From NCBI GenBank assembly GCA_001636495.1, contig KV440964.1, forward strand, positions 1,752,666-1,816,665: DNA of 64,000 nucleotides, written 5' to 3'. The notes beneath the pieces are model-generated. The model was not told the origin of the DNA. It searched no databases and saw nothing but the letters and a program-made list of their open reading frames with translations. The translations under genes were made by a program, and so were the position numbers. Origin of the DNA: Sutcliffiella horikoshii. GTDB taxonomy: Bacteria; Bacillota; Bacilli; Bacillales; Bacillaceae_I. Positions 979-21,504 of this stretch are shown piece after piece. Numbering within the stretch: the stretch's first letter is position 1; each line of letters opens with the position of its first letter.

Positions 979-988
979 GTGAAGAACA

Positions 989-3236: not shown

Positions 3237-3331
3237 AAACGTGTAAAATCTTATTGAAATTTGAAAGATAGTATAATAGAATTATAGATAGAAAGATTAC
3301 TACATATTTCCATTACGGGAGGAAAATTACG

Positions 3332-3823: not shown

Positions 3824-3831
3824 TTTATAGT

Positions 3832-4584: not shown

Positions 4585-4613
4585 TACTACATCTTACATA
4601 AGGAGCTTTCTGG

Positions 4614-5597: not shown

Positions 5598-6235
5598 TGT
5601 TAGTAGATATCGATTTATTACCGAAGAAGAAATCCAGAAATATAACCACGCCCCTTGTGTATGGCATTTGTGCATTTTTTCTATTATTCGTTGCCATTAT
5701 CCTTTTTACATTCTCCAATATGATAAATAACGATGTAAAGACTGCACAGCAGGATCTTGAAATAGTCCAGCAGCTGAGGATTGCCAAAGAAACATCTATG
5801 AACCGTCCACAAAACTCCTCCTCTGCGAAACGTCTAGAAGATACGGTTGCATGGGCAGAAGAGTACCCGCTTGAGATGGTGCCTGTTATGCAGGACCTAA
5901 TCAGATTGTTACCGGAACGGGGATTCATTCAAAGCTTTACCTATGATGAAACAGGACTATTGAATTTATCCGTCCAATTCGATGAGTCCCGCGATGCTGC
6001 TTATTTCCTTTATCACTTGAACGAATCTTCGCTCTACCATTCTATCGATCTCTCCTCCATATCGACGGTGGAGGTTGGAGAGGAAGAAACGGTCGGTGTG
6101 CTGCCAAGGTATATCGGACAATACACTTTGGGCTTTGACCGTCATGCATTCCAAACGGTTGAAGAAGAATTGGAAGATGAAGTGGAAGAAGAGAACGATA
6201 CCGTTACGGAAGAGGAGGAGGACGAAGAGCTATGA
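5594..6235 (+). CDS. pilN: PilN-like bitopic pilus assembly protein
   Basis: This 213-residue membrane protein has the short cytoplasmic VDIDLLPKKK peptide that matches the INLLP-type PilM-binding motif of PilN. A single transmembrane helix follows at about residues 20-42, then a coiled-coil-prone and ferredoxin-like extracellular part. The C-terminus is extremely acidic (runs of Glu and Asp from about residue 190). The gene overlaps pilM and pilO by 4 nt each (ATGATG junctions), which implies coupled translation of a PilM-PilN-PilO complex. Confidence 0.83.
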   Translation: MMLVDIDLLPKKKSRNITTPLVYGICAFFLLFVAIILFTFSNMINNDVKTAQQDLEIVQQLRIAKETSMNRPQNSSSAKRLEDTVAWAEEYPLEMVPVMQDLIRLLPERGFIQSFTYDETGLLNLSVQFDESRDAAYFLYHLNESSLYHSIDLSSISTVEVGEEETVGVLPRYIGQYTLGFDRHAFQTVEEELEDEVEEENDTVTEEEEDEEL

Positions 6236-6942
6236 TGATTGAACTGGAAAAGAAACACTACATCCTGCTAAGCTCATGCGTTCTCCTGATTGTATTGGGT
6301 ATCGTTGGCTTCTATTATTTAACCTATGCGCCAAAGGAAGTGAGAGCACAACAGCTTCAGGACGAGAAAAGAATTGAGGAGCAGCTAATCCAAGTGTTGG
6401 AGCAGCAAGAGGAAACCGCTAACGCTACAGGCGATACTACGGTTGAGCTGCAACGTAAGATTCCTGTTACCCCTTATTTGGAGCAACTTATTTTGGAATT
6501 GGAAAAGGCTGAAGTTCTTTCTGATAGTCGTATCGTAAGTATGACCTTCGGGGAAGGGGAGTTCATTCCTGCTGGTACAACTTTGGAAGAGTATGAGACG
6601 ATGCATGAAGACGAAGAGGAAACAGTCCAGGAAGAAGTATATTTACCAGAAGGACTGAAAAAAGTGACGGTGAATCTATCTGTGGAATCGGATGTGTATG
6701 AAGACTTGACTACTTTTCTTTCTTCCCTGGAAAGTCTAACACGGATTACGCAGGTTGAATCTGTAAGCTTCTCAGGTCTGCCGGAAGTGACGTCCACCGA
6801 ACAAGAACAGGAATCTCTTACTTACTCAGTAACTCTATCCGCTTTTTATCATCCGGAGCTTGATGATTTGGTGGAAGATCTTCCTCCATTGGCGGTACCG
6901 GAGCCAAGTAATAGAACGAATCCATTTATCGACACCAACTAA
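6232..6942 (+). CDS. pilO: PilO-like bitopic pilus assembly protein
   Basis: This 236-residue protein has one N-terminal transmembrane helix (about residues 9-30) and a following coiled coil. Its C-terminal domain (about 130-215) shows the beta-alpha-beta pattern of the PilO ferredoxin-like fold. It follows pilN with a 4-nt overlap and ends the pilus operon just before a strong terminator. Similarity to PilO is weak at the sequence level; the size, topology and order M-N-O carry the call. No secretin or PilP gene follows, as expected for a monoderm. Confidence 0.78.
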   Translation: MMIELEKKHYILLSSCVLLIVLGIVGFYYLTYAPKEVRAQQLQDEKRIEEQLIQVLEQQEETANATGDTTVELQRKIPVTPYLEQLILELEKAEVLSDSRIVSMTFGEGEFIPAGTTLEEYETMHEDEEETVQEEVYLPEGLKKVTVNLSVESDVYEDLTTFLSSLESLTRITQVESVSFSGLPEVTSTEQEQESLTYSVTLSAFYHPELDDLVEDLPPLAVPEPSNRTNPFIDTN

Positions 6943-7108: not shown

Positions 7109-8209
7109 GTGGACAATCACCAAGTGAAGATAAAGATAAATGGGAAAGAAAAACCGTACGGAAATGGAAAGAAGAAAAAAAAGTGTTTTAAAGAGAAAGT
7201 GCTGTCCCAACTAAAAGAGGTCCCGATTAAGGAGGACTTCCCTGAAGGAGAGCTGCCAATCATTATTGTGGACGAATCAGCCGCAGCAGCAGAAAAAAAG
7301 GAAGACGAGTTTGAGTGGGTGCTTCCGAAAGAACCCCAAAAAGACTCCAAAGAGTCATCAGAGAACACCTCTTATATTGAAGATCTTCGTCAGCTGAAAA
7401 AGGACAAGGCACCAAAAGTGAGTTCGCCCCCTTTTGGAAAAAAGAAAAAGCTTGCTCCTCCGTCCTTCTCCAAGCAATTGCTAGTGTCCATTGGGATGGC
7501 AATCGGAATTGGTACATGCTTAGGCTTTCTTATACTTGCAGTCATGAATATGTCCGGAACACCAGTTAATCCAGAAGTGCCAGTCGCTGCACCGGTAACA
7601 AATCAAACGAATGATACACCAACAACTCCTGCAGTTAGCGGGGACGGAAATGCCACCATTCCTGCTCAAACTATTTCTGTCCTTCAAGCAGGTGCGTTTT
7701 CAACGGCTGAAGGAGCGAACGCTGAAATTGACCGCCTAAAAGCTGCCGGTTTTCCAGGAGTTGCGATAGGCTCTGAACCCACCTATGTTTTCATGGCTGT
7801 CGGACAAAATGTAGAAGGCATGAAGCAGATTGCCGGGGAGGCTCAAACGAAGGGATTTGAACCGTATGCAAAAGACCTGGCTCTCTCAGAAAAAACGATT
7901 GATTCCCTAACTGAACAGGACGTCCTTCTTCTTCAGGAAGGCCAGGTTTTGTACAAACAACTTACCGTTGCCACGGCTCTTCTTTTACAAGGAAGCTCCT
8001 TGGATGCTTCAACCACTGACACCCTGGGGGCATCCTTCGAAAAAGTAGCTGCCATCCAGGACTCAGAGCTGACAGAAGCTATGAAAGAATGGAAGGCGTC
8101 ACTCTCTGGAGCCTATGAAAACCTACAATCCCACCAAGCATCCAATAACACCCAAGCACTCTGGGATGCCCAACAAAAACTGTTGGATGCAACCAAATTC
8201 TTCTATTAA
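7109..8209 (+). CDS. spoIIB: SpoIIB, SPOR-domain sporulation septum/engulfment protein
   Basis: SpoIIB localises to the sporulation septum and helps SpoIIDMP start septal peptidoglycan thinning and engulfment. The protein has a charged cytoplasmic region beginning HQVKIKINGKEK, one transmembrane helix at about residues 125-147, a Thr/Pro/Asn linker, and a SPOR-like domain at about 185-255 (SVLQAGAFSTAEGANAEIDR). I chose the GTG at 7109, 366 aa, because GGAGGT at 7096-7101 is spaced correctly for it; a GTG at 7100 would sit on that site. The position directly before maf matches B. subtilis spoIIB. The C-terminal 100 residues are a helical extension of unknown role. Confidence 0.85.
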   Translation: MDNHQVKIKINGKEKPYGNGKKKKKCFKEKVLSQLKEVPIKEDFPEGELPIIIVDESAAAAEKKEDEFEWVLPKEPQKDSKESSENTSYIEDLRQLKKDKAPKVSSPPFGKKKKLAPPSFSKQLLVSIGMAIGIGTCLGFLILAVMNMSGTPVNPEVPVAAPVTNQTNDTPTTPAVSGDGNATIPAQTISVLQAGAFSTAEGANAEIDRLKAAGFPGVAIGSEPTYVFMAVGQNVEGMKQIAGEAQTKGFEPYAKDLALSEKTIDSLTEQDVLLLQEGQVLYKQLTVATALLLQGSSLDASTTDTLGASFEKVAAIQDSELTEAMKEWKASLSGAYENLQSHQASNNTQALWDAQQKLLDATKFFY

Positions 8210-8251
8210 TTCAAGGGTTGTGTCCTTGTCGTTTTGAAAATCATATAGAAA

Positions 8252-8605
8252 AGTGGATTGAAGCGGAAGTCACTTGACTCCTGCGGGAGGAATGGACAGG
8301 GGAGACCTCGCAACGAAGGAGGCCACTGAAAAAGTAACGAACTTTAATAATCTGATTAACACCGCTGTTGATTTCCGCAAACGGCTTCGCTTTCCGCGGG
8401 GCGACCTTGAGCCTCCTCGGGCTACGCCCTGCGGGGTCTCAAGATTGTCGCTATCCCCCCGCTGGAGTCTTCGCCTATTGCTCCAATCAACAGCTAGAAA
8501 CCATAAAAAAGATAAGTTTTTAGATTTTTTTGTGGCCTCGAAGCGTTGTGAGGAGGCTCCCGGACCGCCCGCGGAAAGCAAGTGACTGCAGCGGAAAGCA
8601 ACGTC
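8252..8605 (+). repeat. Composite palindromic repeat element, copy R1 (nested)
   Basis: The left half begins with a GACTCCTGCGGGAGG motif at 8277-8290 and runs to CAACGAAGGAGG. The right half begins GGCCTCGAAGCGTTGTGAGG and ends CCGCGGAAAGC. Flanking arms GTCACTTG (8269-8276) and CAAGTGAC (8579-8586) are complementary. The two halves are separated by an inserted 216-nt module (8321-8536). It occupies the gap between spoIIB and maf and contains no convincing gene. The family recurs at 12.8, 24.0, 31.0, 35.7, 38.7 and 39.9 kb. Confidence 0.8.
8321..8536 (-). repeat. Inner 216-nt module of R1, inverted relative to R7
   Basis: The module is bounded by GGCCACTGAAAAA on the left and TTTTTTGTGGCC on the right, an inverted-repeat pair. 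Read on the minus strand it is almost identical over its whole length to 39949-40165. Within it lies a repeat element like R5, with GCTGTTGATT and AATCAACAGC arms. Confidence 0.85.
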
Positions 8606-8632
8606 AAACTTATCACCAATTTTCAATAGAAG

Positions 8633-8670
8633 AAGGCCGCCTCAAAACAAGATTTTGGGGCCTTTTCCCC
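8633..8670 (+). terminator. Probable intrinsic terminator before maf
   Basis: AAGGCC pairs with GGCCTT and CTCAAAA with TTTTGGG across a small bulge, followed by a T-rich tract. It lies about 420 nt after spoIIB, beyond repeat R1, so it would end transcripts that read through the repeat. Confidence 0.5.
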
Positions 8671-8784
8671 CTCCAAAAAACAATCTTTCCAATCTGTGGG
8701 AAGATGTTTGTTCACCCCACTTTCTTTATGATAGGATTAGAATGTATCTCTCATTTAAAAGACTATTGCGGAAGGTGATAAAAC

Positions 8785-9342
8785 ATGAAACCTCTTATCT
8801 TAGCCTCAGGATCCCCAAGAAGAAAGGAACTTCTCCAACAAGTACATCTCCCCTTTACCGTGAAGGTGAGCAACATCGAAGAAACCTTCGACCCATCCTT
8901 GGCACCGGAGGAAATTGCCACAACCCTTGCCTATCAGAAAGCCCAGAATATTTTTCAAGAAAATCGCGAGTCCGTTGTTATCGGTTCCGACACCATTGTA
9001 GTCCTTGGCGACAAGGTGCTTGGAAAACCGGAAAGTGAAGACGAGGCCAGGGCCACACTCCGGACCTTAAGCGGCAACACACACCACGTAATAAGTGGAG
9101 TCGCCATTCTGAGTGAAGAAAAAGAGGTGACTTTTTTCGAGAAAACTTCTGTCACATTCTGGGAACTGACCGATGAGGATATCGAGTTCTACATCCAATC
9201 AGGAGAACCGATGGACAAGGCAGGTTCCTATGGGATTCAGGAAGTCGGAGCGCTTTTTGTCAAAGAAATCAAAGGAGACTACTTTTCAATTGTGGGGCTT
9301 CCGCTTTCAAGAACGATTCGTGAGTTGAAAAGCTTTCAATAA
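8785..9342 (+). CDS. maf: Maf family nucleotide pyrophosphatase
   Basis: Maf (185 aa) hydrolyses non-canonical or methylated nucleoside triphosphates (dTTP/UTP and modified forms) and affects septum formation when overproduced. The signature ASGSPRRKELL is at residues 7-17, and the conserved SDTIVVLGDKVLGKP segment contains the catalytic Asp. KAGSYGIQEVGA closes the active-site region. It is followed by radC and mreB in the order known from B. subtilis. Confidence 0.95.
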   Translation: MKPLILASGSPRRKELLQQVHLPFTVKVSNIEETFDPSLAPEEIATTLAYQKAQNIFQENRESVVIGSDTIVVLGDKVLGKPESEDEARATLRTLSGNTHHVISGVAILSEEKEVTFFEKTSVTFWELTDEDIEFYIQSGEPMDKAGSYGIQEVGALFVKEIKGDYFSIVGLPLSRTIRELKSFQ

Positions 9343-9389
9343 AACGGTCGTGGCATGACCCTCCATCCGTAAAAAGGGGAGGAAGAAAA

Positions 9390-10088
9390 TTGGAATCCAC
9401 TAAAACGACTGCACTGATGATCAAAGACTATCCTGAGGATCAACGGCCAAGGGAACGAATGATACAGGATGGACCAAAAAGCCTGTCTAACCACGAATTG
9501 CTTGCCATACTTCTTCGTACAGGATCAAAAGAAGAATCGGTCTTGCAACTGGCCAATAAACTCCTTGTGAATTTTGAAGGACTGCGTCTGTTGAAGGATG
9601 CTTCTATTGAAGAGATAACCGATACAAAGGGGATCGGAAAGGTGAAGGCGGTCCAGATTATGGCAGCTGTGGAACTCGGGAGAAGAATACACCGTTTGCA
9701 ATATGAAGATCGCTATGTGATCCGATCTCCTGAGGATGCTGCGAATTTTGTGATGGAAGACATGCGCTTTTTATCACAGGAGCATTTTGTTTGTCTCTAT
9801 TTGAATACGAAAAATCAGGTTCTTCATCAACAGACCATTTTCATTGGGAGCTTGAATGCCAGCATCGTCCATCCGCGCGAGGTCTTCAAGGAAGCGTTCA
9901 GACGATCTGCCGCCTCATTTATCTGCATCCATAATCATCCATCAGGTGATCCCGCGCCGAGCCGCGAGGACATTGATGTGACAAAACGATTAAGTGAATG
10001 CGGAAAGCTGATCGGCATAGAGCTTTTGGACCATTTGATCATCGGCGATCAGAAATTCATCAGTTTAAAAGAAAAAGGCTACGTGTAA
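9390..10088 (+). CDS. radC: RadC family JAB/MPN+ protein
   Basis: The product (232 aa from a TTG start, with GGGGAGGAAG ahead of it) has an N-terminal helix-hairpin-helix region (about residues 40-85). The C-terminal JAB1/MPN+ metalloprotease-like domain carries the HNHPSGDPAPSxxD motif (about 178-190). RadC was named for a supposed repair role that has not held up generally, and its biochemical function is still unclear. It sits between maf and mreB as in B. subtilis (ysxA/radC). A small GAAGG-CCAA-CCTTC hairpin after the gene lacks a T tract. Confidence 0.93.
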   Translation: MESTKTTALMIKDYPEDQRPRERMIQDGPKSLSNHELLAILLRTGSKEESVLQLANKLLVNFEGLRLLKDASIEEITDTKGIGKVKAVQIMAAVELGRRIHRLQYEDRYVIRSPEDAANFVMEDMRFLSQEHFVCLYLNTKNQVLHQQTIFIGSLNASIVHPREVFKEAFRRSAASFICIHNHPSGDPAPSREDIDVTKRLSECGKLIGIELLDHLIIGDQKFISLKEKGYV

Positions 10089-10257
10089 TACTAGGCATTT
10101 TTCATATCCTACGCTATAATATTACTCATGAGTTTCGAAGGCCAACCTTCTTAATCCATCAAAATTCTACAAATTAACGTTATCCACATGTTTATGAAAA
10201 TATAAGGGCATGCTTCGTCCGTTTTATCACTTTTCATTTACCATTATTACGCATTAG

Positions 10258-11298
<1,041 letters not shown>

Positions 11299-11312
11299 GT
11301 AGGTGTTAAGTC

Positions 11313-12200
11313 ATGCCACAATTTTTCCTCAATAAAAGGTTGATTATTTTGTTGGTGAGCTTAATTTTTCTGGTGGCATTGATTGGTTTCTCTTTAAAAG
11401 AACGGGACGATTTGACATGGCCTGAACAGTTCGTAAAGGACTCGACAGGCTTTGTCCAATCTATCTTTTATAGGCCCGCACACTTTGTCGCGGGCTTCTT
11501 TGATAATGTAGGCTATCTAAAAGATACGTATGAAGAGAATAAACTGCTGCGTGCTAGACTAGAAGAATATGCTCTTTTAGAAACGAAGGTACAGAAGCTG
11601 GAACAAGAAAATGAAGAATTCCGTGAAGTGATCGGGGAACTCGATTCGCTTCGTGATTATGAACCAAAGCCTGCCACTGTCATTGGCAGAAACCCTGATC
11701 AATGGGTCGAGCAGATCACGGTGAATAAAGGGAAGCAGAATGGTGTGGAAAAGGATATGGCTGTCATCACTTCTGGTGGATTGATCGGTAAGATCAAGCA
11801 TGCCAACGCCTTCACCTCCACCGTACAGCTCCTAAGTTCATTGGACCCTAAGAACCGGATCTCTGCGTACATACAAGGAGAAGAGGACATTTTTGGTCTG
11901 ATCGAAGGATATGACGAAGAGAAGGGTGCCCTGCTGCTTAAACGTATCCCTCACCAAGCGGAAGTTAAAGAAGGGGAGACTGTTTTATCCTCCGGGCTTG
12001 GCGGTGTATTCCCTGAAGGTCTGATGATTGGGGAAGTGACAGAGGTTGTAGCAGATGAGTACGGGTTGACGCAGATGGCCTATGTCAAACCTGCTGCCAA
12101 CTTCTATAACATCAGTCAGGTGATGATAGTAAAACGAACATTAATATCGGGAGATGAGCCGGTAGAAGAGGAAACAACAGAAGAGGGGGGCTCTGAGTGA
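11313..12200 (+). CDS. mreC: Rod shape-determining protein MreC
   Basis: MreC (295 aa) is a bitopic elongasome scaffold with a transmembrane helix at about residues 9-27. A coiled coil follows (about 70-110, Glu- and Leu-rich), then the two beta-barrel lobes (about 120-275) ending in a short acidic tail. It starts 14 nt after mreB and overlaps mreD by 4 nt. Confidence 0.95.
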   Translation: MPQFFLNKRLIILLVSLIFLVALIGFSLKERDDLTWPEQFVKDSTGFVQSIFYRPAHFVAGFFDNVGYLKDTYEENKLLRARLEEYALLETKVQKLEQENEEFREVIGELDSLRDYEPKPATVIGRNPDQWVEQITVNKGKQNGVEKDMAVITSGGLIGKIKHANAFTSTVQLLSSLDPKNRISAYIQGEEDIFGLIEGYDEEKGALLLKRIPHQAEVKEGETVLSSGLGGVFPEGLMIGEVTEVVADEYGLTQMAYVKPAANFYNISQVMIVKRTLISGDEPVEEETTEEGGSE

Positions 12201-12718
12201 GAAAATATATCTTACCAGCCCTGCTTCTTTTCTTGTTTATCCTCGAAAGCATGAGCATCGACTTCTTTGGCCTTCAGGGGATCAAGGAAGACTGGATTAT
12301 CGTACCTAGGTATATGATGATTGTCATCGTCCTCTGTGCCATCTACACGAGCCCATATGTGGGCCTGATTTGTGCCATGCTGTTCGGGTTCCTCTATGAT
12401 ATCGTCTATACGGATATCCTCGGTGTCTACCTGTTTGCATTTGGCGTATCTGTGTATATTGTCTCCGGTATATTGCGGTTTGTGAACACAAATTACCTGA
12501 TATCCTTTCTGATGGTGCTGCTTTCCATTACCATAATGGAGCACCTCGTCTTTGGAATTCACTCCCTGATTGGGACAACACAGTTGACACATTCCGATTT
12601 TTTATCCATGCGTGTGGTGCCAACACTAGTGTTTAATGCCATCATCGCAGGAATGCTATTATTTCCAATCAAACTGTTCATGGAAAAACTCGCAATCGAA
12701 CAAAAGGATGAACTATAA
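12197..12718 (+). CDS. mreD: Rod shape-determining protein MreD
   Basis: MreD (173 aa) is a small polytopic membrane protein of the elongasome with about five predicted helices and very few charged residues between positions 5 and 160. The start is GTG at 12197, overlapping the end of mreC. After it come repeat R2 and a terminator before minC. Confidence 0.92.
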   Translation: MRKYILPALLLFLFILESMSIDFFGLQGIKEDWIIVPRYMMIVIVLCAIYTSPYVGLICAMLFGFLYDIVYTDILGVYLFAFGVSVYIVSGILRFVNTNYLISFLMVLLSITIMEHLVFGIHSLIGTTQLTHSDFLSMRVVPTLVFNAIIAGMLLFPIKLFMEKLAIEQKDEL

Positions 12719-12760
12719 GAACATATTTTTAGTCATTGGCTCTAGCTATAAAGAAACCAA

Positions 12761-12890
12761 GCTTTTGATTGTAGCAGAAGGCGAAGACTCCTACGGGAGG
12801 TAGCGCTTAGGGGAGACCCCGCAGGCTTGCCGAGGAGGCTCCGCAAGCGCCCCGTGGAAAGCGAAGCCTGGTGCGGAAATCAAAAGCGGC
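12761..12890 (+). repeat. Palindromic repeat element, copy R2
   Basis: The core reads GACTCCTACGGGAGGTAGCG through CCCCGTGGAAAGCGAAG. Perfect 10-bp arms GCTTTTGATT (12761-12770) and AATCAAAAGC (12878-12887) enclose it. This gap between mreD and minC (about 330 nt) otherwise holds only a terminator. Confidence 0.8.
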
Positions 12891-12914
12891 GTTTAAAGTG
12901 AACGGAAGATATAT

Positions 12915-12950
12915 AAAAGCCCCATCCCCAACAAAGGGACGGGCTTTTCC
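12915..12950 (+). terminator. Intrinsic terminator after mreD/R2
   Basis: AAAAGCCCCATCCC pairs with GGGACGGGCTTTT around a 7-nt loop (12915-12928 with 12936-12948). The T tract is short. Confidence 0.75.
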
Positions 12951-13049
12951 ATTACATAAAAAATCTAGCAATCTTTTTTTATTTTATGGATATAGGAAAA
13001 AGGAAATAGAAGGACGATGTCGAATTATATACTTGTTGAGGTGAACGTC

Positions 13050-13736
13050 GTGAATAGACAAAAACAACAGTATGTAACCATTAAGGGCACAAAAGAGGGC
13101 CTAACCCTGCATCTCGATGATACATGCTCGTTTCCAGAGCTTTTAGCTGAAATAGAAGCAAAATTAACGTCGAATAGCAATCCGGACGAAGCTCCACTCT
13201 TAGGTGTACGTCTAAGAGTCGGAAATCGTTACTTAACCAATAAGCAGCAGGAACAATTACGTAATGTAATTCGAAGCAAGAAAAACTTTATTGTGGAAGA
13301 CATTGAGAGTGATGTTGTAACAAAAGAACAGGCCATCCAATGGAAAAAGGAATCCGAGATCGTTCCGGTCGCAAAGATGATTCGTTCCGGACAAGTGCTC
13401 GAGGTGGAAGGAGATCTCCTGTTGATAGGAGATGTCAATCCTGGTGGCACGGTAAAGGCAGGGGGCAATGTGTTTGTTATGGGCGCATTGCGCGGAAGTG
13501 CCTACGCCGGGCTCCAAGGAAAAAAGGATGCCATCATTGCAGCAAGTTTGATGAAGCCTACGTTGCTTTCAATTGATAACACAATAAACCGCGCTCCAGA
13601 TTTAAGTGAGCAACTAGAAGGAAGCAGTGAAATGGAATGCGCCTATATAAATGATCAAGATCAAATTGTCATAGACCGCTTACAATTGCTTTCACAACTA
13701 AGACCGATGTTAACACGGCTTGAAAGGAGAATGTAA
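13050..13736 (+). CDS. minC: Septum site-determining protein MinC
   Basis: MinC (228 aa) blocks FtsZ assembly away from midcell. I chose GTG at 13050 because a GAGGTGA site lies just upstream and the resulting N-terminus ([17 protein letters not shown]) aligns with B. subtilis MinC; an in-frame ATG at 13017 would add 11 residues without a good ribosome site. The N-terminal FtsZ-inhibitory domain covers about residues 5-95. The C-terminal right-handed beta-helix (about 110-215), with [17 protein letters not shown], binds MinD. minD follows 3 nt after the stop. Confidence 0.95.
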
Positions 13737-13739
13737 CAA

Positions 13740-14540
13740 GTGGGAGAGGCTATCGTAATTACTTCTGGTAAAGGTGGAGTCGGCAAAACGACAACTTCTG
13801 CAAATATAGGAACGGCTCTTGCTTTACAAGGAAAAAGAGTATGTTTAATAGATACAGATATCGGGCTAAGAAACCTCGATGTTGTCATGGGGCTAGAAAA
13901 CCGAATCATTTATGACTTGGTAGACGTTGTGGAAGGTCGTTGTAAAACACATCAGGCCTTGATCAATGATAAACGCTTTGAATGCTTGAAGCTCTTGCCT
14001 GCAGCCCAAACAAGTGATAAGTCGGCTGTAAAACCGGAACAAATGAAGAAACTCGTGATGGAACTGAAGCAAGACTATGATTATATCATCATAGATTGCC
14101 CTGCAGGTATTGAGCAAGGCTTCCAAAATGCCATTGCCGGAGCTGACAGAGCCATCGTTGTCACAACACCTGAAGTGTCCTCTGTACGTGATGCAGACCG
14201 TATTATTGGGTTGCTCGAAAAAGAGGAGAACATCCAACCGCCACGCCTTGTCGTCAATCGTATCCGTAACCATATGGTAAAGAACGGCGAGATGCTTGAT
14301 GTAGATGAGATTGTATCCATACTTGCAATTGACATCATTGGTATCGTTGCAGATGACGACAGTGTCATCCGCGCATCAAACAGCGGAGAACCAATTGTCA
14401 TGGATCCGACAAGCAAAGCGTCCATCGCCTATCGTAACATTGCGCGACGCATCCTTGGCGAGTCTGTTCCTTTGCAATCTCTTGAAGACGAAAACAAGAG
14501 CGTTATTTTTAAAATTAAAAAATTCTTTGGTGTACGCTAA
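13740..14540 (+). CDS. minD: Septum site-determining ATPase MinD
   Basis: MinD (266 aa) is a ParA/Mrp-type ATPase that recruits MinC to the membrane. The deviant Walker A GKGGVGKTT begins at residue 10 and the switch region contains DTDIGLRNLD. The C-terminal KSVIFKIKKFFG stretch is the amphipathic membrane-targeting helix. The start is GTG behind AAAGGAGA. In B. subtilis spoIVFA follows minD; here a minor-pilin island intervenes. Confidence 0.96.
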   Translation: MGEAIVITSGKGGVGKTTTSANIGTALALQGKRVCLIDTDIGLRNLDVVMGLENRIIYDLVDVVEGRCKTHQALINDKRFECLKLLPAAQTSDKSAVKPEQMKKLVMELKQDYDYIIIDCPAGIEQGFQNAIAGADRAIVVTTPEVSSVRDADRIIGLLEKEENIQPPRLVVNRIRNHMVKNGEMLDVDEIVSILAIDIIGIVADDDSVIRASNSGEPIVMDPTSKASIAYRNIARRILGESVPLQSLEDENKSVIFKIKKFFGVR

Positions 14541-14597
14541 AGATTTAATGAAGCCGTCTCTTAAATAGGGGCGGTTTTGTTTTGGAGAATATAAGAA

Positions 14598-14626
14598 AAA
14601 ACCACCTCAAATTTTGTGGTGGTTTT
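14598..14626. terminator. Bidirectional terminator between minD and a minus-strand pilin gene
   Basis: AAAACCACC pairs with GGTGGTTTT around an 11-nt loop, with A and T tracts on the two sides, so it can act in both directions. It overlaps the stop codon of the convergent minus-strand gene. Confidence 0.82.
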
Positions 14627-15914
14627 ATTGGTTATTTAATACGTAAATAGTACCTTCTGGCTGTCCTTGGCAAGAAGACATCGTATAAATTCTACTAGTA
14701 TTTTGAGAAGGGGAAAAGCTAGCAGTACCCTGAATACAGACTCTACCTCCATGACCTCCGCTAAGCTCAATAGGTGATTGGAAAACTGCATCACCGAAAA
14801 TTTCTAATTGTGTGTTATGTTGTAGCTTTGTTAACCCCTTAATAGTGTAGTCACCACTGATTTCCACAATAGCGTTACCTTTTATATCAAGTGAGTCGTT
14901 AAAAAAAGCATCTTTTCCTACATGGATATTGCTACTATTCTCTAAAGTTACTTGTTTATGGACAGTAAGGTTTCTTCCGATATGCAGCTCTGAATTTGTA
15001 TACATATTTAGTTTTTCGTGTATGGTGACATCTTTTCCTACAGTTAAATTGCTATTGTTTTGTAGCTCAACATTTCTTTCGGCAATCATACTACTTGTAA
15101 TAAATGCCGAAGTTGCTGTGAAGAGACTAACGTTGTTTTTAAAAATCGCACTTTGTCCAACATATAGATCAGCGGTGTTATCCATTCTAAACGATTTTGT
15201 AGCAATAAAATTATGGTCAACATTTATATGAGAGAAAACAGTAACATCTTTTAATAACATAAAACTGCCATTATTAACTTTTGTAACCGGACAATTTGTC
15301 CCCCAAGTTGGTGCGAATGTTGTAGCATTAGTTTTAGTATTCCCTTCATATGTACATCTTCCTGCGGTATCACCTTGATAGTTATCCGGATTATCGTCTA
15401 TCTCTTCCTTAACATCCTCATCTTCAACAGGCTGTTGGGTAAACTCAAGAGGTTTCAATCTATTAATAACTGTATTCATTTCGAATTGTTGCCCATTCTC
15501 GTTATGTAGAGTAAATTTTATAAACAAAGGAGCTAATACATCCACATTTTCTATGCATTGCCCAGTACTTTCAATAGACTTATTCAAGTTCTCAATGACA
15601 ACATTGGAAAAATTGTATTTATCTAAAGCGAGTTGATTTGATAATTGACTGTCTAAATATAGTTGATAATTTGATTCATAACAGAGATTGTAAGAATTAT
15701 CTTGATGATTTTGTCTCAATTTGCTAATAATAAGATTAGCTTCCTGTCTTAAGTTATTATGGTTATTAACTAGTTCATTTTGCTTAAAGCTTGAAATGAA
15801 GACACTTGTAATCAAGCCGATGACCATGGAGCTTATGACAATTGTCGCCAGTAATTCAATAAGTGTAAGGCCGTGGTCATTAAGTATTCTTTTAGGAGAC
15901 ACATTTTTCACCAT
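14625..15914 (-). CDS. PilW/GspJ-like minor prepilin with beta-helix-like C-terminal domain
   Basis: This 429-residue prepilin has a leader ending in Gly15, then LTLIELLATIV with Glu20 at mature position +5. A PilW-like middle follows (about 45-160). An acidic linker (about 162-180) leads to a region with two cysteines (187, 208). From about 215 to 420 there are repeated short strands with alternating hydrophobic residues and recurrent (N/G)-x-(V/I)-x-(V/I)-G-(K/R) turns, as in bactofilin or right-handed beta-helix folds. The family assignment of that part is inference. The gene runs opposite to its neighbours and diverges from the next pilin gene across a 59-nt gap. It is AT-rich. The likely role is a pilus-tip or priming subunit with an adhesive head. 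Confidence 0.72.
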   Translation of the reverse strand: MVKNVSPKRILNDHGLTLIELLATIVISSMVIGLITSVFISSFKQNELVNNHNNLRQEANLIISKLRQNHQDNSYNLCYESNYQLYLDSQLSNQLALDKYNFSNVVIENLNKSIESTGQCIENVDVLAPLFIKFTLHNENGQQFEMNTVINRLKPLEFTQQPVEDEDVKEEIDDNPDNYQGDTAGRCTYEGNTKTNATTFAPTWGTNCPVTKVNNGSFMLLKDVTVFSHINVDHNFIATKSFRMDNTADLYVGQSAIFKNNVSLFTATSAFITSSMIAERNVELQNNSNLTVGKDVTIHEKLNMYTNSELHIGRNLTVHKQVTLENSSNIHVGKDAFFNDSLDIKGNAIVEISGDYTIKGLTKLQHNTQLEIFGDAVFQSPIELSGGHGGRVCIQGTASFSPSQNTSRIYTMSSCQGQPEGTIYVLNNQ

Positions 15915-15973
15915 CTTTTTAGGTAATTAGTAGCATGTATTAAAGTTAACTGTAGAAAAGTGGGTAGGTAATA

Positions 15974-16459
15974 ATGGAAAATTTCAAAGAAGAAAAAGCA
16001 TTCACTTTACTGGAGGTTTTATTATCCATTGTTATACTTAGTATTATAATTCTATCATTTTTGAGCTTTTTTTCACAAGCGTTATTGCATTCTGTACGAG
16101 AAGAAGATAATTTAACTAGCATGAATATTGCTGATACTATTTTGTATAGTGTGGAAAAAAGCAGTATAATAGACCTATTGAAAGAAAACTCTAACCGCAA
16201 TTTATCATGTCTTACTCCACTCTCAATTAGTTCTTACCTCTCTGAAGATTTACAACTGCAACCAGATGCTACTGACCCTGATAAACTAGTTCTTCATATT
16301 AATAGCAAAGATTACTTTACATATATTGACGTTTGTCAAACTAGTAGCGAAGAAACTTTAGATTTATACCGTCTTCATATTCGCATAAGTCAACCATTGA
16401 AAAATGAAAAAGAACGATTTATTTATGACACATTTCACTATATTAACCAGAAAGATTAA
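15974..16459 (+). CDS. PilV/GspI-like minor prepilin
   Basis: This 161-residue prepilin begins MENFKEEKAFTLLEVLLSIV. The predicted cleavage is between Ala9 and Phe10, with Glu14 at mature position +5; Ala replaces the usual Gly at -1, which is tolerated in some prepilins. The hydrophobic helix extends to about residue 33, and the soluble part is small with two cysteines. It has no extra C-terminal domain, unlike its two neighbours. It is probably co-transcribed with the following gene (17-nt gap) and belongs to the minor pilin priming set. Confidence 0.75.
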   Translation: MENFKEEKAFTLLEVLLSIVILSIIILSFLSFFSQALLHSVREEDNLTSMNIADTILYSVEKSSIIDLLKENSNRNLSCLTPLSISSYLSEDLQLQPDATDPDKLVLHINSKDYFTYIDVCQTSSEETLDLYRLHIRISQPLKNEKERFIYDTFHYINQKD

Positions 16460-16476
16460 GAGGAGGGAATAACTAA

Positions 16477-17454
16477 TTGAAAGAGATATTCAAGAACGAA
16501 TCAGGATATACACTTCTAATAGCCTTATTACTGATAGTTGTTATTGGTTTGATTACTCCACCATTAGTAAGTGGTGTCATGAACAGTACCATGCAAAATA
16601 AAAAATCAGAAACGATTATTCAATCAGAAAATCTTTTAGATATGGGAAAACATTACTTTAGAAATGAGATTGGTACTAAAGTTGGAGAACTGAACGGGGA
16701 AACAACGATGAGCCTTAGCGAAATACGTAATAGGTTAGTCTCAATTGAAGAATCCCTACCAATCATATTGCCTTCCGAATCAAGTGATCAATCTTTCCAA
16801 GTTGGATTTAGTGCAATCACGGAAGAGGACGGGTACGTTCTTATTGAATATACTAGCAGGGCAATAATTGATGGGCAAATTTACGAAGAAAAAGAAGTTG
16901 TTCAAGTTAAAAGCAATGCAAGTAGTTACAACCCGAATCCTGAAAACCCAGATCCAGACCCAGATCCAGACCCAGATCCAGACCCAGAAATAATACCGGA
17001 TCCCGATACTGATCCAGAAATTGAAAATCCATCTACTCCTCCTGTTGTTAACGAGGGAGAAAGTTGTTTGTTAAATAAAAAGAAAAATGGAACCATTACT
17101 CTAAAAGCAAAAGATCACTGTATATTAAGAGGAAGCTTTGTAATTAATGACCATGTAGATATAAGAGCTCAGGCAAAATTAGAAATATATGGATCAGTTA
17201 TTTTTAATGGGAATGTAGATTTAAAAGGTTCTCCTAAAGGTTTTTTATTAATTGAAGGACCAGGAGTTTTTAACAAATCATTAGATATTGGTGGTAGTAA
17301 TGAAGTTCGAATAAAAGGTTCTAGTGTTTTTCAGCAAAATGTTAGTGTAAAAGGGAACGGTTTGATAGATATTCAAGGAAGTGCCAGTTTCGTCAAAAAA
17401 CCTAGTAAAAGTGGAAACGGTAGTATAAAAATAAATAATTTAGAACATAGATAG
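16477..17454 (+). CDS. GspK/PilX-like minor prepilin with Asp-Pro linker and beta-helix-like domain
   Basis: This 325-residue protein starts at TTG behind a strong GGAGG site. The leader ends in Gly10 and is followed by YTLLIALLLIVVIGL. Mature position +5 is Ile, not Glu, a feature of GspK-type tip subunits. A DPDP-rich linker (about 153-190) separates the pilin part from a C-terminal region with Cys197 and Cys215. About 100 residues of short repeated strands follow (GSVIFNGNVDLKG, GSSVFQQNVSVKG), resembling the domain in the divergent 429-residue pilin. I infer a pilus-tip protein displaying a beta-helix head. It ends the AT-rich island just before a terminator. Confidence 0.72.
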   Translation: MKEIFKNESGYTLLIALLLIVVIGLITPPLVSGVMNSTMQNKKSETIIQSENLLDMGKHYFRNEIGTKVGELNGETTMSLSEIRNRLVSIEESLPIILPSESSDQSFQVGFSAITEEDGYVLIEYTSRAIIDGQIYEEKEVVQVKSNASSYNPNPENPDPDPDPDPDPDPEIIPDPDTDPEIENPSTPPVVNEGESCLLNKKKNGTITLKAKDHCILRGSFVINDHVDIRAQAKLEIYGSVIFNGNVDLKGSPKGFLLIEGPGVFNKSLDIGGSNEVRIKGSSVFQQNVSVKGNGLIDIQGSASFVKKPSKSGNGSIKINNLEHR

Positions 17455-17482
17455 ACTTTCTCTTTTAAGGGAAGGTCTTTTT
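17454..17482 (+). terminator. Intrinsic terminator closing the minor-pilin island
   Basis: GACTTTCTC pairs with GGGAAGGTC (G-U pairs allowed) around a 6-nt loop, followed by five T residues. It begins at the last base of the pilin stop codon. Confidence 0.72.
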
Positions 17483-17557
17483 GTTTGGTAGACCCGTCAT
17501 ATCCTCCCCGGACAAGTCATAAAATGGTACAAACCTATTTGCGGGAAGGGTGTTTGT

Positions 17558-18337
17558 ATGAATGATCGGATAGCGGAGATTAAGAGAAGGGCCGCAAAAC
17601 GTAGAAAGCAACGGCAGAATCAGCTGCCGAAAAGGAAAGATATTGGCTCATCGCACGTTTTACGAGATGAGGAGAGGTATGGAGGATCAGGCTATTCCTC
17701 TTATGAAAGTGGACCTGATGAGAATGGTGGACATCCGTTATTCAACAAAGAACTATTCTTGTTCAAGATCCTGGCTTCAGCAATTCTAGTGCTGGTGGTG
17801 GCTATCATGTTTCAAAACCCTTCCAGTGCGTTTGAAAAGCCGCGTCAGTTTGTTTCGAAAACGATGGATCAAAGCTTTCAGTTCGCCGCTTTTACTAGCT
17901 GGTATGAAGAGAAATTTGGGAAGTCTTTGGCACTCTTGCCGTTACCGAATAATAGCGCACAGCCCCAAGTCAATCCAGATGATTTTGTCATCCCGGCTTC
18001 GGGTCGGGTGTTTGAGAGTTTTGAGGTGAACGGGCAGGGTGTGATGGTGGAAACGATGGCGCACTCCAATGTGGAGGCGATGAATGGTGGTTTTGTGTCG
18101 TTCGTTGGTGTGAAGGAGGACACAGGAAAAACGGTCATCATACAGCACTCAGATAATAGCTATACGTGGTATGGGCAGCTTGGGGAAGTGGAAGTGAAAC
18201 TCTATGATTATATTGAGACAGGCGATGTGCTGGGAAAGACGACGGTGCTTGAGGATGGATCAAAAGGGATGTTCTATTTTGCTATCCAAAAGGATAATGA
18301 ATTTATCGACCCTATGCAGGTGATATCATTTGAATAA
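17558..18337 (+). CDS. spoIVFA: SpoIVFA, regulator of the SpoIVFB intramembrane protease
   Basis: SpoIVFA (259 aa) holds SpoIVFB inactive in the outer forespore membrane together with BofA until SpoIVB signalling. The N-terminus is very basic (residues 1-30). One transmembrane helix lies at about 66-86. The C-terminal part (about 165-255) resembles an M23/LytM domain without evident zinc ligands, as in known SpoIVFA. The stop overlaps the spoIVFB start. Confidence 0.9.
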   Translation: MNDRIAEIKRRAAKRRKQRQNQLPKRKDIGSSHVLRDEERYGGSGYSSYESGPDENGGHPLFNKELFLFKILASAILVLVVAIMFQNPSSAFEKPRQFVSKTMDQSFQFAAFTSWYEEKFGKSLALLPLPNNSAQPQVNPDDFVIPASGRVFESFEVNGQGVMVETMAHSNVEAMNGGFVSFVGVKEDTGKTVIIQHSDNSYTWYGQLGEVEVKLYDYIETGDVLGKTTVLEDGSKGMFYFAIQKDNEFIDPMQVISFE

Positions 18338-19199
18338 TAAGTGGCTAAGGCTTTTTCAAAAAATACATGTCCATCCTCTCATGTGGTTTTTGGTGGGACT
18401 GGCCATTATGACTGCGAACTTTCGGGAGCTGTTACTTCTATTTTTCATCGTACTGGTTCATGAACTGGGACATGGGGTGGCGGCTACACACTATAATTGG
18501 CGAATTAAGCAGGTGTTGCTATTGCCGTTTGGTGGGGTGGCTGAAATGGAGGAGCATGGGAACCGTCCCCTAAAAGAAGAGCTGGTTGTCACACTCGCGG
18601 GCCCGTTGCAGCATATATGGCTGGGAGCGGGAGGGTTTCTTTTATATAAGATGGGATATTTATCCCTGGGGATGTGGGAACTGTTTTTTACATTTAATTT
18701 GATGATTTTTCTGGTGAACCTTCTGCCCATCTGGCCGCTTGATGGCGGGAAGATTATGGGGCTTTTGTTAAGCAGGTTCTCGGCTTTTGCACAGGCTCAT
18801 GAAAGGACGTTGCAAATGTCCTTTGTATTTCTGGCGATTTTTACGGCGACGTACCTGTTCATTGATCCGTTGCATATCAATATCTGGATCATCACGGTCT
18901 TCCTCTTTTTTTCCTTATATACGGAATGGAAACAAAGGCATTTCATGTTTATGCGATTCCTGATGGAGCGGTATTACGGAAAGAATAATTCTTTTTCGAC
19001 CATCACTCCGATTGTCGTGGATGAGAAGGAGAAAATCCATCAGGTACTTCAACGGTTCAAACGCGATTGTAAGCACAATATCATTGTGATGAAGGGGAAT
19101 GACAAACAGCCACCGCTCGATGAAAATGAGCTGTTGCATGCTTATTTCAAGGAGAAGTTGACGACAATTGATATAGGAGATATCCTGTATTCATACTGA
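18330..19199 (+). CDS. spoIVFB: SpoIVFB, S2P-family pro-sigma-K processing protease
   Basis: SpoIVFB (289 aa) is the intramembrane metalloprotease that cleaves pro-sigma-K in the mother cell. The zinc motif HELGH is at residues 44-48 and the third ligand Asp138 lies in NLLPIWPLDGG. Six hydrophobic segments are followed by a soluble CBS-like C-terminal domain (about 225-289). The start is TTG at 18330, overlapping spoIVFA by 8 nt. bofC and spoVB elsewhere in this window belong to the same sporulation programme. Confidence 0.93.
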   Translation: MNNKWLRLFQKIHVHPLMWFLVGLAIMTANFRELLLLFFIVLVHELGHGVAATHYNWRIKQVLLLPFGGVAEMEEHGNRPLKEELVVTLAGPLQHIWLGAGGFLLYKMGYLSLGMWELFFTFNLMIFLVNLLPIWPLDGGKIMGLLLSRFSAFAQAHERTLQMSFVFLAIFTATYLFIDPLHINIWIITVFLFFSLYTEWKQRHFMFMRFLMERYYGKNNSFSTITPIVVDEKEKIHQVLQRFKRDCKHNIIVMKGNDKQPPLDENELLHAYFKEKLTTIDIGDILYSY

Positions 19200-19227
19200 T
19201 ACTACTTCGAAAGCTGAGGCTAATTCA

Positions 19228-20679
19228 TTGATAGAGTTAATTATGGATATGAAAGCGACAGAGAAACGGGTCGCGATAAAAGAGGATGACAAAATTGTCG
19301 AGTTATTGATTGACCGGCCAACTTCTCATCCGATTGAAGGAAATATATATGTGGGTCGCGTTGTGAATGTTCTGCCAGGCATGCAAGCCGCTTTTGTTGA
19401 TTTTGGACAAAAGAAACCAGGATATCTTCATCGCGACCATTTGTGTTCTTATCAAACCTCCACCCTCTCCAAATCGGAAAAGGAACAGAAGGGCATTTCC
19501 CATTTTGTCCACCAGGGGGAAGCGATTTTGGTACAGGTAGTAAAAGAGAGCGAGGGGGCAAAAGGGGCCAAGCTCACTGGTCTCCTTGAGTTTCCAGGGA
19601 CACATATTGTGTACCAGCCATACGGGAAGTATAAAGCCATTTCTAAAAAAATGTCCGATGCTAAAAGGCAGGAATGGCGCAAGCTTTTACAAGAATGGCT
19701 GACTTCAGAAGAAGGGGTTATTTTACGTACCGCAAGTGAGCATGTTTCTGCTGAGGTGGTGGAGGCGGAACTGTTGGAATTGCAACGGCAGTTCTTGGAA
19801 GTCCAGGAGAAGCAAGGCGCGGCTGTAAAGGTTCCTCTTCTTGTCCACCAAGAAGATCATTTTTTATCAAAAATACTTAGAGAGATATCTGCTGCTGATG
19901 TGAAGCTTGTAGAGGTGGATGAGGTCCATACCTCCCAGCTTTTGAAAAAGAAAGGCTATCCTGTCCGTTTTTATCAAGGGAAAGAAGGCATCTTCAAAAG
20001 AAGGGGCATGGAGCAGGAGCTTGAGAAAGCATTGAAGCGGATTGTGTGGCTGCCAAGCGGAGGGTATATCATCATTGAACATACCGAAGCGATGACGGTC
20101 ATTGATGTGAATACCGGAAAATACATAGGGAAGACAGGACAAAAAGAAACGGTGCTGAAAACCAACCTTGAAGCGGCAGTCGAGATAGCGAGACAGCTTC
20201 GCCTAAGACAAATCGGCGGTATCATTATTGTCGATTTCATCGATATGGCAAGTGAAGGGGAACGTCAGCAGGTGCTCCGTTCTGTGCAGCATGCGGTTCA
20301 GAAAGACCGCTCCCATGTGAGGGTGATCGGGTTCACCGAATTGAATCTGTTGCAGCTTACACGCAAGAAGGTACGTGAACCGTTGACGAAGATGCTCCTG
20401 CAGCCATGCGAGCCGTGCGATGGCAAAGGGGTCGTGTTCTCTCTGGATACCGTCACCTATCAGCTGGAGCGGGAGTTGCTGGAGCTTAAAGGAAGCGATG
20501 TCGAAGCGGTAGTGGTGGAAGCGAGCACAGAAGTTGTCGACAAACTGATGAGACTTTCTGATATAATGGAAAGAACGGGCCTTGAGGTTTATTTTTTGAA
20601 AAATGTCGGAGTGCCCCGTTTTGAAGTCAGGTTTGCCGGGTCTGTTGAGGACGCGAAAGAAAGGTTAAAAACGCTCTGA
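19228..20679 (+). CDS. rng: RNase E/G family endoribonuclease
   Basis: This 483-residue RNase E/G-type enzyme cleaves single-stranded AU-rich RNA and matures rRNA. An S1 domain covers about residues 36-125. The catalytic Mg-binding pair is Asp293 (VIDVNTGKYIG) and Asp336 (GGIIIVDFIDM). The zinc-link cysteines are Cys394 and Cys397 (CEPCDGKG), after which the protein ends with the small domain, as in RNase G rather than long RNase E. The start is TTG with a GAGG site. B. subtilis lacks this family, but some other Bacillaceae have it. Its place before rplU echoes the rng-like neighbourhood of ribosomal L21 genes in other bacteria. Confidence 0.93.
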   Translation: MIELIMDMKATEKRVAIKEDDKIVELLIDRPTSHPIEGNIYVGRVVNVLPGMQAAFVDFGQKKPGYLHRDHLCSYQTSTLSKSEKEQKGISHFVHQGEAILVQVVKESEGAKGAKLTGLLEFPGTHIVYQPYGKYKAISKKMSDAKRQEWRKLLQEWLTSEEGVILRTASEHVSAEVVEAELLELQRQFLEVQEKQGAAVKVPLLVHQEDHFLSKILREISAADVKLVEVDEVHTSQLLKKKGYPVRFYQGKEGIFKRRGMEQELEKALKRIVWLPSGGYIIIEHTEAMTVIDVNTGKYIGKTGQKETVLKTNLEAAVEIARQLRLRQIGGIIIVDFIDMASEGERQQVLRSVQHAVQKDRSHVRVIGFTELNLLQLTRKKVREPLTKMLLQPCEPCDGKGVVFSLDTVTYQLERELLELKGSDVEAVVVEASTEVVDKLMRLSDIMERTGLEVYFLKNVGVPRFEVRFAGSVEDAKERLKTL

Positions 20680-20686
20680 AACCTTA

Positions 20687-20716
20687 TTGACATAAGGGTT
20701 TGGAATGTGCTAAGAT
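20687..20716 (+). promoter_or_regulatory. Sigma-A promoter of rplU-prp-rpmA
   Basis: TTGACA at 20687-20692 and TAAGAT at 20711-20716 are 18 nt apart, with an extended TGC directly before the -10. It begins 7 nt after the rng stop. Confidence 0.75.
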
Positions 20717-20723
20717 GTTCTTT

Positions 20724-20841
20724 GTTAGTTTGTAGCACCCGTGCTACAACCGCACAGTCCAGGTTCCATGAAATATGAACGTGAATTCGTTACATATACC
20801 TGATACTGGCGAGTCTGAGTCTATTGAGGAGGTGCAAGAGA
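20724..20841 (+). ncRNA. Ribosomal protein L21 leader RNA
   Basis: This roughly 118-nt untranslated region before rplU contains a GTAGCACCCGTGCTAC hairpin (about 20732-20747) and a CAGTCCAGG...CCTGATACTG segment. It lies in the position of the known L21 leader of Bacillaceae, thought to bind L21 for autoregulation. I recognise it from position and overall pattern; a covariance-model search would settle it. Confidence 0.7.
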
Positions 20842-21150
20842 ATGTACGCAATTATTGAAACAGGTGGTAAGCAAATCAAGGTTGAAGCAGGTCAAGCGAT
20901 CTACATCGAAAAGCTTGATGGCGCTGCTGGAGATGTAGTAACTTTCGACAAGGTTCTTTTCGTTGGTGGCGACGATGTTAAAGTCGGTAGCCCACTAGTA
21001 GCGGGAGCAACTGTAACGGCTAAAGTTGAAAAACAAGGTCGTGCGAAGAAGCTTACTGTATTCAAGTACAAAGCGAAGAAAAACTACCGTAAAAAACAAG
21101 GTCATCGTCAACCTTACACTAAAGTTACTGTTGATGCTATCAACCTGTAA
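20842..21150 (+). CDS. rplU: 50S ribosomal protein L21
   Basis: L21 (102 aa) binds 23S rRNA in the large subunit. The start [11 protein letters not shown] is at ATG 20842 behind GAGGAGGTG; an upstream in-frame TTG is part of the ribosome site. The C-terminal basic [15 protein letters not shown] signature is present. It heads the rplU-prp-rpmA operon. Confidence 0.98.
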
Positions 21151-21165
21151 TTATAAGGTGATCGT

Positions 21166-21492
21166 ATGATTAAAGTTACAATTAAACGAGACGATCACAA
21201 GTTGATCCAATCGTTTACCATAACTGGACATGCTAACTTTGCCAAAAAGGGTGCAGACATTGTGTGTGCCGGTGTTTCTGCTGTATCATTCGGTGCGGTG
21301 AACGCGGTCATGTCATTATGTCAGGTCACTCCTGATATTGAGCAGGGTGCAGATGGATTTTTAAGGTGCTCGGTCCCATCCGGTTTGGATGAGTCGACAC
21401 ATGAGAAAGTACAGCTGTTGCTAGAAGGTATGGTTGTGTCTTTAGAGACGATTGAACGTGACTATGGAAATTATATAACCATTTCTAAGTAG
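21166..21492 (+). CDS. prp: Ribosomal-processing cysteine protease Prp (YsxB)
   Basis: Prp (108 aa) removes the N-terminal extension of ribosomal protein L27 in Firmicutes. The catalytic His22 (GHANFAKKGADIVCAG) and Cys34 are at the positions known for the family. The gene lies between rplU and its substrate gene rpmA, whose product carries the matching cleavage motif. Confidence 0.95.
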   Translation: MIKVTIKRDDHKLIQSFTITGHANFAKKGADIVCAGVSAVSFGAVNAVMSLCQVTPDIEQGADGFLRCSVPSGLDESTHEKVQLLLEGMVVSLETIERDYGNYITISK

Positions 21493-21504
21493 GAGGTGGA
21501 ATAC

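Follow-up and report, generated by a model that had tools for sequence, protein, structure and literature searches.

Minor pilins that form tip complexes have been described in several systems, which are cited here and below from excerpts of the papers named. Tip complexes prime pilus assembly, and those minor pilins that assembly requires are described as the more conserved ones (PMC10191384). In the GspIJK and PilHIJK (PilVWX) complexes, three subunits encoded by neighboring genes take three roles, and the capping K subunit is marked by the missing glutamate at position 5 of the mature helix (Glu5) (PMC9934059, PMC10191384); neither GspI nor GspJ is modular, and GspK has an extra alpha-domain inside its pilin sheet (PMC8179133). 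In Streptococcus sanguinis, PilA, PilB and PilC form an adhesive tip in which PilB and PilC are modular, with vWA and lectin modules as C-terminal heads, and the Glu5-less PilA is headless and I-like (PMC9934059, PMC8179133). In the ComZ/PilA2 system of Thermus thermophilus, ComZ is a minor pilin proposed at the tip that contains a beta-solenoid and binds DNA (PMC6561018). Modular pilins are widespread, with 264 architectures (PMC8179133). Here, we analyzed a set of three minor-prepilin genes, named W, V and X, that lies between minD and spoIVFA in Sutcliffiella horikoshii. The window is the whole stretch of 64,000 nucleotides from assembly GCA_001636495.1 (contig KV440964.1, positions 1,752,666 to 1,816,665) to which all coordinates refer.

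The trio resembles S. sanguinis PilA-PilB-PilC in comprising three Gram-positive minor pilins of which two are modular and one lacks Glu5; in the window, however, even the Glu5-less X has a head, and the heads of W and X consist of 20-residue repeats with no domain above a Pfam cut-off. It shares with GspIJK the clustered genes, the three likely roles and a Glu5-less presumed cap, and with ComZ a putative beta-solenoid, although ComZ has a single solenoid inside the pilin sheet (PMC6561018) while the trio has two heads placed after linkers, with no sequence match to ComZ seen. Since modular pilins are so widespread, the cassette is a variation on a known design, and the simplest account by analogy would be a priming and tip complex of the I-J-K kind onto which two heads have been grafted, as in PilABC, the heads being solenoid-like modules as in ComZ. 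What is unusual is the pairing of regular heads, one of them on the presumed cap subunit, and the exchange of the whole set between two main chromosomal addresses. A preliminary description of this DNA, made from the sequence alone, had stated that no system with this exact design was known. The excerpts of PMC9934059, PMC10191384, PMC8179133, PMC9956873, PMC6668835, PMC3244431 and PMC6561018 contain no account of this cassette, and one may have appeared elsewhere; with PilABC and ComZ as close precedents, the statement was too strong.

Three open reading frames (ORFs) occupy the interval between minD (13740-14540) and spoIVFA (17558-18337), W on the minus strand and V and X on the plus strand, at a junction where minD presumably adjoins spoIVFA in B. 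subtilis. The features of the cassette and of the candidate pilus machinery are as follows.

14625-15914, minus strand: W, pilW/GspJ-like minor prepilin, 429 amino acids; predicted cut after G15, Glu5 present, Pfam N_methyl above cut-off, one strong W-profile match in the genome.
15974-16459, plus strand: V, pilV/GspI/ComGE-like minor prepilin, 161 amino acids; Glu5 present, Ala at -1, Pfam N_methyl above cut-off.
16477-17454, plus strand: X, pilX/GspK/ComGG-like minor prepilin, 325 amino acids; TTG start behind GAGGAGG, no Glu5 (position 5 is I).
14628-15356, minus strand: W head at the C terminus, residues 187-429; about nine repeats of 20 residues and four cysteines, from periodicity and alignment.
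16927-17064, plus strand: acidic X linker of Asp-Pro/Asn-Pro type; 46 residues with a charge of -15.
16946-16988, plus strand: 12-bp tandem repeat coding the Asp-Pro run of the X linker; 3.6 copies, matching at 100%.
17065-17451, plus strand: X head at the C terminus; about five repeats, each 20-22 residues long, with a basic charge (+9, isoelectric point 9.8).
14547-14581, plus strand: minD terminator hairpin, left cassette edge; fold -17.9 kcal/mol, z -6.1.
14598-14626, both strands: bidirectional terminator hairpin at the 3' end of the W gene; fold z -3.0 and -3.4, 14-nucleotide arms 93% complementary.
17453-17478, plus strand: V-X operon terminator, right cassette edge; consensus scan, fold z -3.1.
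16-6942, plus strand: pilB (3' part), pilT, pilC, pilA, pilD, pilM, pilN and pilO, from ORFs; candidate machinery served by the trio.
3832-4584, in the window: pilD, candidate prepilin-processing gene.

The preliminary description had reported three prepilins, one of them divergent, between terminators in AT-rich DNA, and each of these points was borne out. The fraction of G and C is 0.336 in the minD-spoIVFA gap compared to 0.447 in mreB-minD. A consensus scan for terminators returned four where 3.3 were expected by chance and listed only 17453-17478 of the three cassette hairpins, so the hairpin folds are the better evidence. All three genes appear to be working genes under purifying selection, since their ratios of nonsynonymous to synonymous divergence (dN/dS) against relative G009 are 0.16-0.27. 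The cassette contains no further ORF of at least 80 amino acids besides antisense frames, no integrase-like ORF of that size was found at 14540-17560 to mark a mobile genomic island, and no direct repeat of at least 14 nucleotides brackets both cassette ends. In the pil operon, whose gene order is conserved in relatives, PilM scored above its Pfam cut-off, PilN and PilO fell just below theirs, and PilA had an N_methyl match; we take the names pilB, pilT, pilC and pilD from their sequences.

W, V and X each have the polar leader, Gly or Ala cleavage site and hydrophobic helix of type IV prepilins. W and V exceed the Pfam cut-off for N_methyl, while the leader and helix of X, with KNESG before and YTLLIALLLIVVIG after the presumed cut and no Glu5, were recognized by our own parser only. 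V matched ComGE (3e-6), ComGF (6e-6), GspI (3e-4) and PilV (4e-4), all below NCBIfam cut-offs, and W showed a weak ComGF likeness below the curated cut-off; none of these four models matched X, and no full-length match to a curated equivalog of the PilVWX/GspIJK tip complex was found. Among parsed ORFs (a count that leaves out loci L116, L128 and L131 and five unparsed ORFs), mature-helix position 5 was Glu in 48/48 V and 50/50 W and in 0/46 X. X of the window's cassette type lacked Glu5 in nine of nine, five of which are also within the 46. This is the GspIJK-type pattern, with Glu5 in I and J and missing in K.

The trio is also the only such set found with the pil machinery in its genome. 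An N_methyl search of the window genome returned PilA, V, W and two weak matches (15 bits), together with four prepilins grouped at 2.009 Mb, of which one fell below the cut-off. From its spacing, the 2.009-Mb cluster is taken to be the comG operon, and no prepilin lies upstream of pilB in this genome (L072). We then searched the GTDB family set of 18 genomes (G000-G017, with G000 the window genome) with W and V profiles, some rows of which stem from the same genomes. Seventeen genomes had a single strong W (E ≤1.1e-9) and a single strong V (E ≤2.4e-22), and G001 had two of either kind; the trio is present in 18/18 and single in 17. Weaker rows were PilA, extra V pieces, cross-matches within the trio, or short unlinked ORFs, which were taken for ComG-type pilins and not each inspected. 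Besides the comG-like cluster, the window trio is therefore the sole PilV/PilW/PilX-type set found, in keeping with the earlier suggestion of a tip complex served by the upstream pil genes, a suggestion that the Glu5 pattern also favors.

Both heads are strongly periodic. Hydrophobicity autocorrelation at period 20 was 0.50 in W residues 187-429 and 0.41 in X residues 197-325, values reached in 0/2000 shuffles for either head, whereas the pilin parts had no period (1040/2000 shuffles for W and 527/2000 for X). Among seven other W heads, period 20 or its double (39-40) was foremost in six and the G007 peak was 14; among eight other X heads, period 20 was foremost in six. Judged by eye, the indels between relatives include, in W, lengths of 20, 19 and 40 residues and, in X, lengths of 20 and 22, equal to about one or two coils, along with shorter ones. 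Paired cysteines stand at the entry of each head (C187/C208 in W, C197/C215 in X) behind acidic linkers, of the Asp-Pro/Asn-Pro type in X, so the shared plan of linker, two cysteines and repetitive domain noted earlier is confirmed. With the period confined to the C-terminal part and a distinct linker composition, W and X follow the sequence plan of modular pilins, a pilin module, a linker and a separate C-terminal module. In G011, which has another trio type, W contains a 15-bp repeat that, judged from its translation, likewise codes for a linker.

From this periodicity together with weak profile hidden Markov model (HMM) matches, the heads are best read as beta-solenoids. Many of these matches were to solenoid proteins: AIDA matched 3/8 W heads (1.4e-5) and the PIC/HAP1 solenoid 1/8 (0.003) in Pfam, and the PDB profile search gave weak matches to autotransporter beta-helices (3syj, E 0.003). 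Bactofilins and the AIDA stalk are repeated short beta coils. The heads scored below the curated cut-offs for Bactofilin (PF04519), DUF7305 (PF23981) and the AIDA stalk (PF16168) wherever a cut-off was printed, and Pfam found neither a vWA nor a concanavalin-like lectin module in window W or X. The preliminary description had compared the heads to bactofilins: the repeats are real, but membership in that family was rejected at the sequence level. PF04519 did not match window W or X, its best scores were 8.6e-5 among eight W heads (two matched) and 0.032 among eight X heads, G003 W reached 20.1 bits against a gathering score of 27.9, and hhalign to the family's own bactofilins gave probabilities of 9% (W) and 5% (X). 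The likeness is at most one of fold.

The phylogeny of the trio departs from that of its neighbors. Between G000 and G009, 65/272 fourfold-degenerate sites differ in the trio compared to 197/435 in pilM, mreC, minD and spoIVFA (Fisher p 7e-9), and synonymous divergence (dS) is 0.21-0.43 in the trio versus 0.57-1.57 in six core genes. With the nearer relative G010, trio protein identity is only 34-53% and that of minD 98%; along the DNA, identity starts at 0.89, drops to 0.46 over ~14.5-14.65 kb, ranges between 0.39 and 0.73 within the cassette and is back at 0.89 at 17.5 kb. A trio tree built without the heads joined G000 with G009 (100/100) and rejected G000+G010 (approximately unbiased (AU) test, 3e-15) and G007+G009 (2e-4), whereas a nine-genome core tree joined G000 with G010 (100/98) and rejected G000+G009 (3e-54). 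On the 18-genome core tree, the 17 labelled genomes (G001 left out) require at least six changes of site and at least seven of type. Both the trees and the synonymous divergence show exchange, which supports the earlier proposal that the trio was acquired as a unit; it moves between species as one cassette, and the trees reject its co-inheritance with core genes.

Beyond its helix, PilA (3332-3823) is hypervariable, with 26-57% identity to 16 relatives, and its variation is independent of that of the trio. A linkage between trio and PilA type was ruled out, as G009 shares the trio at 86-89% and PilA at 43%. The type IVa pilin island of Pseudomonas is a variable, horizontally moving minor pilin set linked to pilA and pilY1, unlike the window trio, which is unlinked to the separately varying PilA. 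No plasmid origin was indicated: with W as the query, tblastn over 72,556 plasmid records returned nothing at E 1e-3.

A survey of the minD-spoIVFA junction, proposed with the preliminary description, placed all or part of the trio there in 11/18 family genomes and elsewhere in the rest. Nine have the divergent W-V-X arrangement of the window (G000, G001, G003, G006-G010 and G014), G016 has V-X-W in one direction, and G011 has V-X, with W on another contig. The trio lies upstream of pilB in 6/18 (G002, G005, G012, G013, G017 and, from coordinates only, G015), as does the second trio of G001; that of G004 is in neither place. The gap contains no gene of at least 70 amino acids in four of the 18 (G002, G012, G013, G015) and a GDPD-like gene alone in G004, G005 and G017. 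Fifty-three loci from other records, obtained by alignment query of genome contigs (W alone as query returned nothing), were placed by a script with a name-based rule: 36 beside pilB or its neighbor p506 (including two distant-taxon loci, L116 and L131), five at minD-spoIVFA (the same genomes as G003, G006, G008, G010 and G014), four near folC/valS (among them L093, the G004 locus of S. halmapala, on one loose match) and eight elsewhere.

Several neighbors of these addresses were recorded in passing. A GDPD-family gene, assigned by Pfam on the G010 copy, adjoins minD in 8/17 relatives (G003-G005, G008-G010, G016, G017; e.g. L048:13831-14829), and the ORF list has none in the gap of the window genome. 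The two genes directly upstream of pilB (L072:15031-16952; 125 and 506 amino acids) have no Pfam match, and their likenesses accompany pilB in many relatives. In G015 (L051:6367-19816), radC is interrupted by foreign, prophage-looking genes that lie between mreB and the pil operon.

Taken together, we propose that the trio is quite probably the two-headed tip and priming complex of the type IV pilus encoded by the pil operon, exchanged between species as a cassette, with head fold and ligand predicted from sequence. PilD would cut all three prepilins. The I-like V and J-like W keep Glu5, and the K-like X, lacking it, would cap the filament; the V-W-X complex would start pilus assembly. Two rod-like heads of 20-residue coils, on W and X, would be presented through the acidic linkers beyond the cell wall as putative adhesin modules; the preliminary description had suggested adhesive or carbohydrate-binding heads. 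Since the X head is basic, its ligand may be anionic, for example DNA, an acidic polymer or a mineral surface. A species would replace its trio through homologous recombination in minD and spoIVFA, or keep it upstream of pilB instead, while motor genes would follow the core tree. More tentatively, and with somewhat less than even confidence, minD-spoIVFA in Sutcliffiella may be a tip-exchange locus, in which the whole priming and adhesion complex is a plug-in swapped independently of motor and major pilin, its two solenoid heads changing by whole coils under phage or surface selection.

Several observations weigh against this proposal. First, X had no N_methyl match and no prepilin model scored on it, and S. 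sanguinis PilA is Glu5-less yet I-like (PMC9934059), so missing Glu5 alone does not fix the position of X. V has Ala at cleavage position -1 where eight other V of this type have Gly. Ala at -1 may slow prepilin cleavage. Second, the count of one set per genome has an exception in the two trios of G001, and the W profile separates narrowly, the weakest W at 1.1e-9 and the best PilA row at 4.8e-8. Third, the X heads of G010 and G001 had no significant period (321/500 and 77/500 shuffles), and the G001 W at minD-spoIVFA is headless. Because most heads from other trio types show no clear periodicity, we regard the 20-residue plan as a trait of this cassette type. Fourth, the solenoid reading draws on periodicity and weak HMM matches, and unrelated families also match the heads weakly (HCV NS4a, 5e-4, in 4/8 X heads; HROB, 0.01, in the W head), so such HMM matches carry little weight; likewise, hhalign of the W head with the X head (E 1.6e-9) does not show common descent, as the reversed-sequence control gave 1.9e-6. 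Lastly, the 18-genome core tree pairs G007 with G009 as sisters at moderate support (78/87), although the nine-genome tree has G007+G008 (35/54), and AT-rich codon choice could have helped to lower the fourfold divergence of the trio; against the latter, G007 and G009 reach 48/77 fourfold sites in the same gene.

The alternative that survives best, though we consider it unlikely, is a tip for DNA uptake or extracellular DNA like that of T. thermophilus ComZ-PilA2, in which the basic X solenoid would bind DNA for transformation or biofilm. The X-head charge of +1 to +9 in 9/9 of this type, window included, and the beta-solenoid and DNA binding of ComZ would fit this role. However, the genome has a separate comG-like cluster, the window heads are C-terminal rather than inside the pilin sheet, the profile searches returned no PDB row for a ComZ chain, and the charge of eight W heads is close to zero (-5 to +2). 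We give markedly less credence to a short pseudopilus for extruding or anchoring cell-wall or spore-related proteins, with the solenoids as wall spacers: the GspIJK-like roles, the Gram-positive wall to be spanned and the mre, min and spoIVF neighbors would suit it, but pilT, pilM-O and the variable PilA favor a retractile pilus, and those neighbors reflect location only, since the trio sits elsewhere in relatives. Least probable is an accessory mobile pilin island on a pilus with its own tip set, whose loss would alter adhesion and leave the pilus intact, for although the trio is AT-rich, terminator-bounded, patchy at minD-spoIVFA and exchanged between species, the searches found no second V/W/X set in the window genome, no prepilin upstream of pilB, no extra ORF or bracketing repeat, and a trio in every family genome. 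The preferred reading remains the tip and priming complex of the pil-operon pilus. The preliminary description, which had called the trio an island, is thus supported in part: the script placed 36 of the 53 loci beside pilB or p506, and the window simply has its set at another address.

Elsewhere in the window, 8300-8620 contains a dispersed repeat of ~140-220 bp with 55 matches in the window genome at E ≤1e-5 (40/275 first-look candidates scored). The ribosomal protein L21 leader (RF00559) lies at 20738-20826, as expected before rplU, and was the only Rfam match at gathering scores in 8000-21500.

A tip complex can choose the target that a pilus grips. In these closely related Gram-positive species, very different tip sets occur on nearly identical motors, with the major pilin varying separately, and tip genes located away from the pil operon can be missed by annotators. 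Such a series of species allows a direct test of the interchangeability of motor and tip and of the ligands of the heads.

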